IMG/VR virus record: IMGVR_UViG_3300037549_000022
Coordinates: 1-38,339 of that record
Direction: 5' to 3' (one strand)
Source of the DNA: a virus
DNA length: 38,339 nt
Position numbers and translations under genes: made by a program. The notes beneath the pieces are model-generated. The model had not been told where the DNA came from. It saw only the letters and a program-made list of their open reading frames with translations, and did no database searches. The stretch's first letter is position 1, and each line of letters begins with the position of its first letter. This document shows positions 1,068 through 18,861 of the stretch, piece after piece.

Positions 1068-1372
1068 CCCGCGCCGGCGAAGCCGAAAAGAACGCCGCTC
1101 GCATCCTGCGCGCATTTGGAGCTTCATATCCCAAGATCGCGGATCTGTTCGGCCGCACGGTCGAGGCCGTCGCCGGATGGTGCGATCCCCGGCGCGGCGT
1201 CTCGCGACGGCGCGCGAACAACAAACACGCCGCGCGCTGCCGTGCGGCAGGCTTGCCGTATCGATCGCCGGAGGTGCTGCGCCGCTCGCAATTGCGCAGG
1301 AGCGCGCGCGAGGAAGCCAAGGCGACAGGCGAGAACGTCGAGACGATTTATAGCCGGTGGGGCGTCGCATGA
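1064..1372 (+). CDS. Putative HTH-containing protein upstream of the methyltransferase
   Basis: A 102-residue, strongly basic protein. Residues about 10-45 (ARILRAFGASYPKIADLFGR and onward) look like a sigma-region-4/transposase-type helix-turn-helix: helix, a turn at the SYPK segment, then a recognition-like helix around TVEAVAGW. The C-terminal half is Arg/Ala-rich and may bind nucleic acid. It overlaps the previous stop and the following methyltransferase start, both by ATGA. The likely role is DNA binding or regulation in the early operon; this rests on pattern, not on a recognised family. Confidence 0.6.
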   Translation: MTRAGEAEKNAARILRAFGASYPKIADLFGRTVEAVAGWCDPRRGVSRRRANNKHAARCRAAGLPYRSPEVLRRSQLRRSAREEAKATGENVETIYSRWGVA

Positions 1373-2409
1373 CCGCCTATTACAATGAAATAGACGGAGC
1401 CGCTGCGCATGTCCTCGAAAGCCTTATCGAAGCTGGCACAATTGCAAATGGCATCGTGGACCGCCGATCAATTCGGGATGTTCGGCCTGCCGATCTCGAC
1501 GGATTCACGCAATGCCATTTCTTCGCAGGTGGCGGATTGTGGAGCGTCGCCGCACGGCTCGCCGGATGGCCCGACGATAAGCCGCTGTGGACCGGATCCT
1601 GCCCGTGCCAACCGTTCTCGGTCGCGGGAAAAGGCGCCGGTACAGACGACGTTCGGCATTTGTGGCCCGACTTCTTTCGCCTCATCCGTGCCAGACGGCC
1701 CGCTGTCGTCATGGGAGAGCAAGTTGCGGGAAAGGCTGGCCGCGATTGGTTCCACGGAGTCCGCACTGATCTGGATGGCGGCGGATATGCCGGACGGGCG
1801 GTCGATATCCCGGCTCTCGCCGTGGACGCCCCCCATATCCGCCAACGGCTCTATTGGATCGCCGTGGCCGACGCCGCAAGCGAGGGACGGCTTTCCGCCG
1901 CACACAGCGGAATATGTGGCCAAGCACAAGGCGAACGGCCACGGCATGTCGAACCTGAACGACACTTTGAACTTCACGGGGGCGCTTTGGCCGACGCCGA
2001 CCGTGGCGGATGCGCAGGGCGGTCATCTGTCGAGATCGGGAGCGCGAGGGAACGAGTTGCTGTTGAATGGGATGATGAAAGCGGCGTGGACAACGCCTCT
2101 CGCCTCGGATGTGGCGAAACAGTCAGAGAACCCCGAAACAACAATACGGAGGCTCGCGGCAGGCCGGCAGGTTGGATTGAACGCGCATATTGCGCTCACA
2201 GAGTACGCAACGGCTCTTATTGGTCCGACGCCGATTGGATCAAATGCCACGACGGAAAAGCGCGGCGCACCAAACCCGACCTTCGCCTGCTGGTTGATGG
2301 GATGGCCGGACGAACTGATCTCTGGCGCATTGCGGGGAATAGCATCGTTCCGCAGCTCGCGGCGGAAGTCCTCCGGGCGTTCCTCGAAACCGAAGGGATA
2401 GCCGCATGA
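1369..2409 (+). CDS. C5-cytosine DNA methyltransferase (phage type)
   Basis: The 346-residue product should transfer a methyl group from SAM to C5 of cytosine in phage DNA, a common way to evade host restriction. Visible motifs are motif I, FFAGGG (51-56); motif IV, PCQPFS (79-84) with catalytic Cys80; motif VI as GEQV, with Glu117 in place of the usual ENV; motif VIII, IRQRLYW (148-154); and motif X, GNSIVPQLA (313-321). Residues about 165-275, where the target-recognition domain should sit, look degenerate and coincide with the best-conserved part of a second reading frame. The start at 1369 is ATGA-coupled to the upstream gene, and the stop is ATGA-coupled to the excisionase-like gene. The Gln in the ENV position is shared, to my memory, by other phage relatives with the GEQV signature. 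Confidence 0.85.
   Translation: MTAYYNEIDGAAAHVLESLIEAGTIANGIVDRRSIRDVRPADLDGFTQCHFFAGGGLWSVAARLAGWPDDKPLWTGSCPCQPFSVAGKGAGTDDVRHLWPDFFRLIRARRPAVVMGEQVAGKAGRDWFHGVRTDLDGGGYAGRAVDIPALAVDAPHIRQRLYWIAVADAASEGRLSAAHSGICGQAQGERPRHVEPERHFELHGGALADADRGGCAGRSSVEIGSARERVAVEWDDESGVDNASRLGCGETVREPRNNNTEARGRPAGWIERAYCAHRVRNGSYWSDADWIKCHDGKARRTKPDLRLLVDGMAGRTDLWRIAGNSIVPQLAAEVLRAFLETEGIAA
1409..2401 (+). CDS. Overlapping-frame protein inside the methyltransferase gene (WPTP-repeat family)
   Basis: A 330-codon ORF lies almost wholly inside the methyltransferase gene in another plus frame. Its product carries features I recall from a recurring phage protein family: SPDGPT (51-56), SKLRERL followed by GST (104-116), repeated WPTPxAxD units (WPTPQARD 153-160, WPTPTVAD 194-201, WTTPLASD 227-234), a GHGMSNLND segment (177-185), and NPTFACWLMGWP (289-300). 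The methyltransferase frame keeps its catalytic motifs outside this zone, so both frames may be coding. The start is uncertain: 1409, 1448 and 1478 are in-frame ATGs. Function unknown. The alternative is a spurious ORF created by GC-rich coding DNA, with family members in databases being the same artefact. Confidence 0.5.
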   Translation: MSSKALSKLAQLQMASWTADQFGMFGLPISTDSRNAISSQVADCGASPHGSPDGPTISRCGPDPARANRSRSREKAPVQTTFGICGPTSFASSVPDGPLSSWESKLRERLAAIGSTESALIWMAADMPDGRSISRLSPWTPPISANGSIGSPWPTPQARDGFPPHTAEYVAKHKANGHGMSNLNDTLNFTGALWPTPTVADAQGGHLSRSGARGNELLLNGMMKAAWTTPLASDVAKQSENPETTIRRLAAGRQVGLNAHIALTEYATALIGPTPIGSNATTEKRGAPNPTFACWLMGWPDELISGALRGIASFRSSRRKSSGRSSKPKG

Positions 2410-2735
2410 ACGCGCCTCTGGTTTACACGCCCGACGAGGCGGCGCTCGTTCTCAAGTGCAGCCCGGCGCATGTCCGCGCGATGATCGGACGCGGGGAAAT
2501 TCCGGCTTTCCGTCTTGGCGGGAAGCTGCTTAGAATTCGCGCCGAGGATCTGGAGGCGCTCACATGCCCGTCGAATACAAGCTCCAGCGATTGCGCGGCG
2601 GATGGTGCATCTCCGCCTATGAAGGCGGAAAGCGAGTCAGCCGCCGACAGCTTGACGCGGGCAATGCGGCAGATGCGGCGGTCGAGTTCGCGCAAACCGT
2701 CGCCATCGCCAGCAAACCCGTCGACCCAACCGTGA
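2406..2735 (+). CDS. Excisionase-family HTH protein (HTH_17 type)
   Basis: Residues about 5-55 (YTPDEAALVLKCSPAHVRAM followed by IGRGEIPAFRLGGKLLRI) form the MerR-like winged HTH typical of excisionase-family proteins: helix, turn, helix, then a wing ending in a basic strand. Such proteins direct integrase toward excision or act as small regulators. The gene is ATGA-coupled to the methyltransferase. Its 109 residues exceed the usual 60-70 because the reading frame continues 172 nt into the integrase gene, adding a Ser/Pro/Ala-rich tail with no fold that I recognise. Position directly before int supports a Xis role, but this is inference. Confidence 0.75.
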   Translation: MNAPLVYTPDEAALVLKCSPAHVRAMIGRGEIPAFRLGGKLLRIRAEDLEALTCPSNTSSSDCAADGASPPMKAESESAADSLTRAMRQMRRSSSRKPSPSPANPSTQP

Positions 2736-3562
2736 GCCAGATATGGGCGGCCTATCGCGCGGATCGGGCAGGGCGCCGCATCGCGGAAAACATGGAGTGG
2801 TCAGGCCGCGCAATCCTGCCCGTGTTCGGCGCCATGAAGCCCATGGCGATTGAGGCGAAGGACTGCCGCGCCTATGCAAAGGCCAGAGCGAAGGCGGGGC
2901 GCCAGTCTGGTACGATCTGCACCGAGCTGGCGCACCTTCGCGTGGCGCTCGCATGGGCGGTCAAGGCGCGCATCATTCGAGAGGCGCCCTATATCGAGCG
3001 CCCGCAGTTGCCGCCGCCCAAAGAGCGCCACCTGACGCGCGGCGAGGCTGAGCGCGTGATCGCCGCCGCCGTCGCGCCGCATGTGCGCCTGTTTATCGTG
3101 CTCGCGATCTCGACCGCCGCTCGAGCGACGGCATTGCTTGAACTAAAATGGGACAGGATCGACTTCGAGCGCGGCCTGATCGTGCTGGGCGACCCTGACC
3201 GGACGCGGCGCCAAAAGGGCAGGGCGACGGTCCCGATGACGAATACGGCGCGCGCCGCGCTGTCGGCGGCCAAGGAAGGCGCGCGGACGGAATTCGTGAT
3301 CGAGCACGGCGGCGCGCCGATCAAGAGCGCGAAGAAAGGCGTTGCGGAGGCCGCGCGCCGGGCTGGCGTCAAGGGATGTACGCCGCACGTCTTTCGCCAC
3401 ACGGCTGCCGTGTGGATGGCGGAAGACGGCGTCCCGATGGCGAAGATTGCCGCGCTGCTAGGCCATTCGGACGAAAACACCACGGCGCGCGTCTATGCGA
3501 AATTTTCGCCGGATCATTTGAGAGGCGCGAGCGCGTCGCTGGAAATGAAAATTTTGAAGTGA
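2564..3562 (+). CDS. int: Tyrosine recombinase / phage integrase
   Basis: The 332-residue protein should catalyse site-specific recombination between phage attP and the host tRNA gene. Residues about 55-140 form the core-binding (SAM-like) domain. The catalytic domain shows Arg187 (in AARATALLEL), Lys218 (RRQKGR), His275-x-x-Arg278 (HVFRHT), His301 (LLGHSD) and the nucleophile Tyr311 (RVYAKF), the complete tyrosine-recombinase set. The N-terminal 50 residues resemble a small arm-binding domain. The start at 2564 lies inside the excisionase-like gene. The attachment site lies about 410 nt downstream, as is usual for integrases that target tRNA 3' ends. Confidence 0.93.
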   Translation: MPVEYKLQRLRGGWCISAYEGGKRVSRRQLDAGNAADAAVEFAQTVAIASKPVDPTVSQIWAAYRADRAGRRIAENMEWSGRAILPVFGAMKPMAIEAKDCRAYAKARAKAGRQSGTICTELAHLRVALAWAVKARIIREAPYIERPQLPPPKERHLTRGEAERVIAAAVAPHVRLFIVLAISTAARATALLELKWDRIDFERGLIVLGDPDRTRRQKGRATVPMTNTARAALSAAKEGARTEFVIEHGGAPIKSAKKGVAEAARRAGVKGCTPHVFRHTAAVWMAEDGVPMAKIAALLGHSDENTTARVYAKFSPDHLRGASASLEMKILK

Positions 3563-16825: not shown

Positions 16826-18433
16826 TCAGAACCCGATGCATTTGTAAGTAAGCGTGTCTGCGGTTCCAGTGTTAACGCCTGCCAACGTGAATGTCGCGCT
16901 TGTCGTTGCAAGCGCTGTCTGGTTGAAAACCGCCGTTGGGGTTGTAAGGTCTTTCAGGTCGCAGTTATAGCCATTCGGAACTGCTGTAAAGCCAGCGAGA
17001 ATGACCGTCTGACCGACTGTACATGCTGTAGTGTTAACGGTGAATTTACCGGCCATTGAACCGCCAGTGGCCGCATTAAGCGTGGTGCATGTGCCAGTAT
17101 TAACGGTCGGCACCGTGCCAGAGGCGTACATGAAGCCAGATAACTGAAGGCCAGAGATAATAAAACGGCTGGACCCGGCATAAGGAACAAATGCGACAGG
17201 CGATCCAACACTGTTGGTGAGAGTAATGTTGTTATTTGATCCCTGCCCGCCGAGCACTAAACCGTTTGTGGCGGACGTATATACTGCGCCCTGCCCGTTG
17301 ACCCCGAATGTAGGCGCCGAAACCAAGCCGCCGATGCCGAGTACACCCGCGTTCGTCCCCGGAGCCCATGTCGTCGTTCCGCCAAGGATCGTTGTGGTGT
17401 TGGCCGGTGGAGAGGCGAGGCCCGCGCCGGAAAAGGCGGTTGTGGATGAATGGCCGATAGCGCCGGTGAAGGTCTGCGCTGCGCCGAGGGTTGCAAACGT
17501 ATCGGTGCCCGTTCCGGTCGCGGCAGGCGTTTTATAGGTCCACGTTCCTGTGCTGGTACCTGATTGGATCGTGTCGTAGCCGGTCGAGGAGCCCTCAAGA
17601 TAGAGGGTTTGTACGGAGGCAGATGCCCACCAAGAGGCCGACGAAGCAAGACCAAGATTGCCCGTGTTGGTCGTCAATGGGACAAAATTATTGACCGCGC
17701 TAATTTTGTAAAACGCAGTTCCGTTGCCACCAAGATTTAGCTGCTGCCCAACGCCAGCCAAAATGCCAAACGCCGAGGAATTGGCTCCGGTGAGCGTATT
17801 GCTCGACGCCGAGATGCCGGTATCAAGCAGTGATGCGCCTGAGGTCGAGTTCCACGCCGGGAGGTTGCCCGAAACGGTTGTTCCAGGCCCGGTTACGCCG
17901 CCGCCAGCGCCGCACGCCGCGCCCGCATCCTGAATGCCGCTGGCGGACCATTTAAGGCAGTCGCCAGCCGTCATGGAGCCATTGACGCCGGTCAGGCCCC
18001 CCGATGCGTTGAGCGCCGCAGCCAGCGCGGACGAAACGCCTGCCCCGAGCGCCGACGTTTGCAGCGCGCCGGAAATGCGCGCGTCCGAATAGAGCGCGAA
18101 GCCGCCCGCAGCCCCCGCCGCGTTCCCGAGCGCCGCGAAAACGCCAGAGCCATAGGCGAACTGAGCCAGCGCATTCGACGCGACATAAAGCCCGTAGCCG
18201 TTCGTGCTGCCAGAAATCGCAACACCGATCGAAGGCGCGGCCAGCGCGGCGATGGCGCCCGTGGTCGTCTGGACCGTCGTCAGGACCGCCGCCACCGTCT
18301 TGTCGACGGGCACAAGCTCCGCGCCCGAAAGCGCGCCCGCCGCTGGCAACGTCGAGATGGAAACATTCGCCGCGTGCGCGGGCGCAAGCATCGTCGCAAG
18401 CGCGAGCGCCACGCAAATCGTTTTCATTTTCAT
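16826..18433 (-). CDS. Fibre-like protein with N-terminal Sec signal peptide
   Basis: A 535-residue Gly/Ser/Thr/Ala-rich protein. I use the ATG at 18433; a GTG at 18442 and an ATG at 18427 are in-frame alternatives. The N-terminus (MKMKTICVALALATMLAPAH then AANV) is a clear Sec signal peptide, very unusual for a virion fibre. The body has fibre-like repeats (TNTGNLGLASSASWWASASV, LYLEGSSTGYDTIQ). The C-terminal about 40 residues (NGYNCDLKDLTTPTAVFNQT) resemble a C-terminal module seen in phage fibre proteins. It could be an exported surface protein of the infected cell or lysogen, or a fibre that acquired a signal. Confidence 0.72.
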   Translation of the reverse strand: MKMKTICVALALATMLAPAHAANVSISTLPAAGALSGAELVPVDKTVAAVLTTVQTTTGAIAALAAPSIGVAISGSTNGYGLYVASNALAQFAYGSGVFAALGNAAGAAGGFALYSDARISGALQTSALGAGVSSALAAALNASGGLTGVNGSMTAGDCLKWSASGIQDAGAACGAGGGVTGPGTTVSGNLPAWNSTSGASLLDTGISASSNTLTGANSSAFGILAGVGQQLNLGGNGTAFYKISAVNNFVPLTTNTGNLGLASSASWWASASVQTLYLEGSSTGYDTIQSGTSTGTWTYKTPAATGTGTDTFATLGAAQTFTGAIGHSSTTAFSGAGLASPPANTTTILGGTTTWAPGTNAGVLGIGGLVSAPTFGVNGQGAVYTSATNGLVLGGQGSNNNITLTNSVGSPVAFVPYAGSSRFIISGLQLSGFMYASGTVPTVNTGTCTTLNAATGGSMAGKFTVNTTACTVGQTVILAGFTAVPNGYNCDLKDLTTPTAVFNQTALATTSATFTLAGVNTGTADTLTYKCIGF

Positions 18434-18438
18434 GGATT

Positions 18439-18861
18439 TCACCCGAGCCTGATAGGGTTGCCGGCTTCGTCGGTGATTATCGCGCCGCTTTCAGTCGCGA
18501 GATAATCGGCGCCCGCCGTGAAAGGATCGCCCGAATCGCCATCGGCGTCGCGTTCCGTCGCGAAAATCGTCATGAACTGGCGCTGTCCGTCTTCGTTCTC
18601 GACGCCGTTGACGTCGAAGCGGCGCCCGCGCCAGAAGATGCGATGATTGGTCCCGATGTCCGAGCGCCAGCGCGTGACAAATTCAAAGGTGCGCATGCCT
18701 TCCGGGCGCCCTGCAACCCATGCCTCGCGCGCGGCCTTGCGCGTCGGCGCCGCCCAAACGGTCGCAACCGCCGTCCATGTCGTGACGATATTGCCGGCGC
18801 CGTCCACGGCCTGCGATTGCAGATCGAAGCGGACGCGCTCGCGAAGGTTCGGGGCGCTCAC
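18439..18861 (-). CDS. Head-tail adaptor / head closure protein
   Basis: A 140-residue protein. The first 105 residues follow the SPP1-gp16-like head-tail joining pattern: LRERVRFDLQSQAVDGAGNI, TWTAVATVWAAPTRKAARE, and a late FDVNGVENEDGQRQFMTIFA strand. It carries an extra acidic C-terminal tail (about residues 112-140). It should close the head below the connector. The start overlaps the stop of the connector gene (ATGA). Confidence 0.83.
   Translation of the reverse strand: MSAPNLRERVRFDLQSQAVDGAGNIVTTWTAVATVWAAPTRKAAREAWVAGRPEGMRTFEFVTRWRSDIGTNHRIFWRGRRFDVNGVENEDGQRQFMTIFATERDADGDSGDPFTAGADYLATESGAIITDEAGNPIRLG

Follow-up and report, generated by a model that had tools for sequence, protein, structure and literature searches.

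A second long reading frame lies inside the C5-methyltransferase gene of the phage DNA analyzed here (IMG/VR virus record IMGVR_UViG_3300037549_000022, 38,339 nucleotides, referred to below as the window). This raises the question of whether the second frame encodes a protein and, if so, how that protein relates to the methyltransferase in whose gene it lies.

Two overlapping frames in a phage C5-methyltransferase gene

Both of the long overlapping frames described in the original prediction were present, at 1369-2409 (the methyltransferase frame, alpha) and at 1409-2401 (F2, the putative beta chain). F2 lies wholly within alpha on the same strand and in the +1 frame, such that the wobble position of alpha is the second codon position of F2. 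Alpha matched PF00145 (E 3.4e-13) and phrog_363 (E 1.2e-68), and F2 matched phrog_1008 over residues 31-303 (E 1.3e-26). The features of the locus are as follows.

1357, + strand: in-frame GTG, alternative alpha start (sequence)
1369..2409, + strand: alpha, C5-methyltransferase frame, 346 aa from ATG; motifs I-VIII and X, without motif IX
1396..1399, + strand: GGAG, possible Shine-Dalgarno sequence 9 nt before the F2 ATG at 1409 (sequence; function predicted)
1409..2401, + strand: beta (F2), nested ORF of 330 codons in the alpha +1 frame; predicted target-recognition modules and motif IX
1478..1480, + strand: ATG at the usual F2 start position of homologues, no clear Shine-Dalgarno sequence in the window
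1519..1545, + strand: alpha motif I region, FFAGGGLWS (established C5-methyltransferase motifs)
1603..1620, + strand: alpha motif IV, PCQPFS, with catalytic Cys80 (sequence, PF00145 match)
1828..1857, + strand: alpha motif VIII region, APHIRQRLYW (sequence, profile match to single-chain methyltransferase)
1865..1987, + strand: beta module 1 (WPTPQARD...GHGMSNLND...), a module type also in other phage F2 proteins
1988..2086, + strand: beta module 2 (WPTPTVADAQGGHLSRSGARGNELL...), nearly the same module in frame 0 of single-chain enzyme L320
2087..2230 (end approximate), + strand: beta module 3 (WTTPLASD...) (sequence)
2273..2308, + strand: beta motif IX (NPTFACWLMGWP) (profile match to single-chain methyltransferase motif IX)
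2335..2355, + strand: alpha motif X, GNSIVPQ (profile match to single-chain methyltransferase motif X)

The key alpha motifs had been read correctly, with both PCQPFS (Cys80) and GNSIVPQLA found in place, and the F2 peptides WPTPQARD, WPTPTVAD, WTTPLASD, GHGMSNLND, SKLRERL, GST and NPTFACWLMGWP were likewise all recovered. With the motif IV PC dipeptide and its catalytic Cys, motif VIII, and motif X, alpha has the features expected of a C5-cytosine methyltransferase. Against the profile of single-chain enzymes (see below), motif IX was not found in the alpha chain, the C terminus of which matched the motif X part only. The motif IX label in F2 (WLMG/WMMG) was assigned from its place immediately ahead of motif X and from what we take to be its resemblance to motif IX of M.HhaI, because the single-chain profile aligned to M.HhaI only over the N-terminal catalytic part.

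The methyltransferase gene is directly followed by an HTH/excisionase-like gene (2406-2735, + strand) that overlaps a tyrosine integrase gene (2564-3562, + strand), and these neighbors place the enzyme among the lysogeny genes of a temperate tailed phage. Elsewhere in the window, a 538-codon open frame on the minus strand (16826-18442) had no PHROG match at E 0.001.

Selection on both frames across homologues

In the window, F2 runs open for 335 codons; synonymous shuffles of the window alpha gave a mean run of 181 codons and a run as long in 0.6% of cases, and the longest run in frame 3 was ordinary (63 codons versus 78 expected). Such a frame could be open merely through the GC-rich codon usage of the methyltransferase; the DNA is indeed GC-rich and the window holds other long spurious ORFs. 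As a check on bias from loci chosen by F2, a second sample was picked by the methyltransferase alone. In 76 of these 77 loci, the open stretch of F2 covered 65% or more of alpha; that of frame 3 did so in none. Stops were counted in 53 sequences, comprising the window and 52 phage loci found by the methyltransferase alone and lying outside the F2-selected set, and compared with synonymous shuffling. Between methyltransferase codons 43 and 315, F2 contained 0 stops versus 168.6 expected, and frame 3 stood at 556 versus 549.7. Upstream of alpha codon 43, F2 stops were not depleted in the alpha-selected sequences (111 versus 87.3 expected). The shuffles preserve codon usage, not codon context, but the agreement of frame 3 with expectation argues against bias. 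The F2 frame was also open in phages of Paenibacillus (48% GC) and Bacteroides (46% GC). A mere shadow of codon usage was rejected by the shuffle tests, in which frame 3 behaved as expected; it is further contradicted by the GC content of these phages and by the conservation of F2 described next, and we give it virtually no credence.

Alpha was constrained as well. When F2 codons were shuffled, approximately 2 to 6 alpha stops were predicted in the center of each locus and 0 were seen. Alpha codons 1-90 and the C terminus diverged as in a normal gene, with position 3 changing far more than positions 1 and 2, whereas divergence at position 1 was near or above that at position 3 in the central region. 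The homologues fall into two methyltransferase subfamilies, A (the window, phrog_363 type) and B (loci L005-L018), whose alpha chains are barely similar but whose F2 chains are homologous and lie in an identical relative frame. At 75-97% alpha identity within subfamily B, identity over codons 181-360 was 0.64-0.87 for F2 versus 0.48-0.81 for alpha. F2 modules of the same type held their sequence while the alpha frame drifted, as in WPTPAVDNFRSRSGERKDEMGMDQ and its relatives; the first 40-50 residues of F2 were hardly conserved. As shared descent gives frame 3 an excess too, pairwise F2 similarity stood only moderately clearly above the shuffled expectation, and codon-position divergence was preferred to it.

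Alpha and F2 are both maintained by selection, and F2 is the more conserved frame in the central region. The comparison of both frames in homologous loci thus favored the original prediction, with F2 stops absent and the divergence pattern switching to the F2 frame in the center, and the approximately 1 kb of dual-coding sequence that it proposed is borne out by selection on both frames. The "degenerate" appearance of alpha residues 165-275 or thereabouts is real, alpha being the less conserved frame there, most clearly in subfamily B.

Spread and existing annotation

A tblastn search with F2 matched 53 phage records (best E 5e-33), and in the records inspected the match sat over a C5-methyltransferase frame, whether annotated so or not. 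Profile searches found at least 509 relatives among the best 600 matches in IMG/VR and 195 relatives in GTDB genomes; among the GTDB matches listed were Proteobacteria, Planctomycetota, Verrucomicrobia, Acidobacteria, Leptospiraceae and Nitrospira. Whether F2 homologues always overlap a C5-methyltransferase had been posed as a check. Of 226 F2-like loci, 221 had an alpha frame uninterrupted across more than 95% of the stretch matched by F2, and in the other 5 alpha was broken or open in part. As none of the 226 held a stand-alone F2 gene, we rejected the idea that F2 is an independent family.

Annotation of these loci varies. Both frames are annotated as "DNA methyltransferase" or "DNA cytosine methyltransferase" in Xanthomonas phage PhiXhv-18, Escherichia phage K1G and Paenibacillus phage DevRi, and only F2 is annotated as a methyltransferase in Pseudomonas phage PMG1 and Klebsiella phage VLCpiM12a. 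F2-type sequences match phrog_1008, phrog_31772, phrog_10223 and phrog_27243 (the last of unknown function), which are probably pieces of the beta/TRD half. The PHROG label "DNA methyltransferase" masks the fact that the F2-type families are another frame of one gene. In Edwardsiella phage eiAU (locus 1474-2895), the beta frame runs stop-free into a downstream annotated second DNA methyltransferase (2353-2898), possibly a natural beta fusion. In the open literature, we found no published description or explanation of the overlap as a general phage feature.

Homology of F2 to single-chain actinophage enzymes

Mycobacterium phage Fancypants gp73 and its relatives (L315-L344) are C5-methyltransferases in which catalytic motifs, xTPxAxD modules, NPRLAAAFPEWMMGWPAGWV and motif X (GNGVVPQQA) follow one another in a single frame; motif IX of these enzymes, WMMGWP, is in frame with the catalytic motifs. 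The alpha profile matched columns 66-185 of the single chain (motifs IV-VIII; E 3e-17) and the F2 profile matched columns 259-418 (modules and motif IX; probability 95.7, E 8e-9), and within the last 89 columns F2 matched positions 30-53 and alpha positions 55-86. These disjoint matches indicate that alpha and F2 divide the single chain between them without overlap, so that at the level of profiles the two are complementary in their homology to single-chain enzymes. Phrog_1008 matched the C-terminal half of single chains, beside phrog_363, at residues 249-407 (1e-48) and 245-451 (6e-67). The window F2 scored up to 52 bits against frame-0 modules of actinophages, versus at most 32 bits in 300 synonymous-shuffle controls, and window module 2 (PTPTVADAQGGHLSRSGARGNELL) is nearly identical to PTPSVADSTGGHMTRSGDRGGELL in L320. 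Judged by these matches, F2 is homologous to the target-recognition/motif IX half of single-chain C5-methyltransferases, and because of this homology it is predicted to be the missing half of alpha's enzyme. It occupies the expected position of the target-recognition domain, in agreement with the suggestion that the second protein uses the methyltransferase's target-recognition segment.

F2 had been described as carrying recurrent features of a phage protein family with no assigned function, and proposed as a possible anti-restriction or DNA-binding partner. The recurrent phage family exists (phrog_1008), but it appears to be half of a C5-methyltransferase rather than a protein of unknown kind. 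A separate protein with another role, overprinting the methyltransferase, would agree with F2 being a distinct, selected frame and with the N-terminal part of F2, which is without an established counterpart in single-chain enzymes. It would leave unaccounted for the homology of the F2 modules and motif IX to single-chain methyltransferases, the missing motif IX in alpha, and the constant company of an overlapping methyltransferase frame in the 226 loci, barring the 5 with a partly broken alpha. We consider such a separate role very unlikely, and the proposal of an independent partner is unsupported.

Five loci of the single-chain group (L318, L320, L326, L332 and L333) carry, besides their frame-0 modules, extra xTPxAxD modules in the +1 frame after a ETLPTSGMTRNG-like sequence. 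In L326, the +1 frame stops (after ...LPSAVMDL) just where the frame-0 array continues (VDLLPTPVARD), as though an indel or recoding had divided one array over two frames.

Start of F2

An F2-frame ATG at alpha codons 33-42 was present in 132 of 155 loci versus 71 in shuffles, and in 99 of the 155 (18 in shuffles) that ATG was accompanied by a Shine-Dalgarno match 4 nt or longer. In the alpha-selected set, the combination of ATG and Shine-Dalgarno sequence occurred 30 times (8.1 expected). The internal start signal of beta is conserved across homologues. The window F2 may start at either 1409 or 1478, because the former has the GGAG and the latter has no clear Shine-Dalgarno sequence. In the subfamily B locus L006, the sequence GTGAATG (2067-2073) places the alpha GTG and the F2 ATG 4 nt apart, so that initiation at both could rely on a single ribosome-binding site.

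These start signals bear on programmed frameshifting, by which translation would pass from frame 0 into the +1 frame (modules and motif IX) and back into frame 0 (motif X) to give one single-chain enzyme. The alpha-F2-alpha order of homology is collinear with the single-chain enzymes, and neighboring modules do change frame in some actinophages. However, two shifts would be required, the depletion of F2 stops begins exactly past the F2 start with none upstream, and frameshifting would not need alpha to stay open through the center. Because F2 has its own start, a conserved ATG with a Shine-Dalgarno sequence, and both frames are open, a frameshifted single chain is the less likely explanation, and we regard it as very unlikely.

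Structure searches

Models of beta (pLDDT 63) and of a single chain (pLDDT 55.8) were both too weak. Searches of PDB and viral folds gave no informative match for the weak beta model, the significant viral fold hits being phage proteins of like kind or unnamed, and the F2 profile matched no PDB chain by sequence.

A putative nested two-subunit methyltransferase

On the strength of these comparisons, we are fairly confident that the locus encodes a nested two-subunit C5-cytosine methyltransferase of the M.EcoHK31I kind, with a beta chain of tandem modules translated inside alpha. The two frames most likely yield the two halves of one DNA-methylating enzyme, of which the beta half probably recognizes the target sequence. 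Alpha (frame 0) would supply the catalytic and cofactor motifs I-VIII and X, and beta, separately initiated inside the alpha gene, would supply the recognition modules and motif IX. The two chains would assemble, presumably as a heterodimer, into one active methyltransferase that methylates the phage DNA, with escape from host restriction as the most likely purpose. The tandem beta modules may give the enzyme more than one target sequence, and any anti-restriction effect would come about through methylation by the reconstituted enzyme.

M.EcoHK31I (YGGCCR) is likewise a split C5-methyltransferase, and Lee et al. reportedly showed in 1995 that the smaller of its two ORFs lies within the larger one, in a different frame. 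Its larger polypeptide carries motifs I-VIII and X and its smaller polypeptide carries motif IX, with the TRD predicted in the larger subunit (PMC3404938). The likeness is one of motif arrangement, the polypeptides being predicted in the phage locus; here, it is the smaller frame (beta) that holds the modules, often as tandem arrays, and the genes are orphan phage genes, whereas M.EcoHK31I is part of a restriction-modification system. M.AquI is also a C5-methyltransferase split over two polypeptides, but the split is sequential, with motifs I-VIII followed by IX and X on the second polypeptide, and that predicted here is interleaved. Fancypants gp73 and its relatives have similar modules and motifs IX and X, unlike the window all in one frame and one polypeptide. 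The multispecific C5-methyltransferases of Bacillus phages (SPR, phi3T) carry several tandem recognition units in one chain; the tandem arrangement resembles that predicted for the window, but the enzyme is a single chain.

The ShiLan element, a hidden HNH endonuclease in a phage methylase gene with both frames open (PMC11855218), is the closest published parallel in concept, in that it places a second open frame inside a phage DNA-methylase gene. It differs in that ShiLan is a sporadic mobile insertion encoding an endonuclease, whereas the second frame described here is near-universal and appears to encode a part of the methyltransferase. A ShiLan-like insertion was rejected, since F2 was open in 76 of 77 methyltransferase-selected loci and had no nuclease match; the families that it hit were all DNA methyltransferases apart from one whose function is unknown.

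Judging from the open literature, the spread of the nested arrangement, the module arrays in beta and the sharing of modules between frames are new. It is evenly balanced, in our estimation, whether the large phage C5-methyltransferase family consists mostly of obligate nested two-subunit enzymes, with the specificity half overprinted on the catalytic half and with interchangeable tandem modules exchanged by recombination among phages and also across frames (0 in actinophages, +1 in the rest), giving combinatorial change of specificity. Many "DNA cytosine methyltransferases" of phages and prophages are annotated from a single frame. If alpha needs beta, clones made from a single ORF or with optimized codons would yield no activity, and the search for specificity would be directed at the wrong protein. 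If true, double-stranded DNA phages would have in this nested arrangement a long same-strand gene overlap of very wide occurrence, and the question of how recognition modules are exchanged when two proteins share the same DNA becomes accessible to test.
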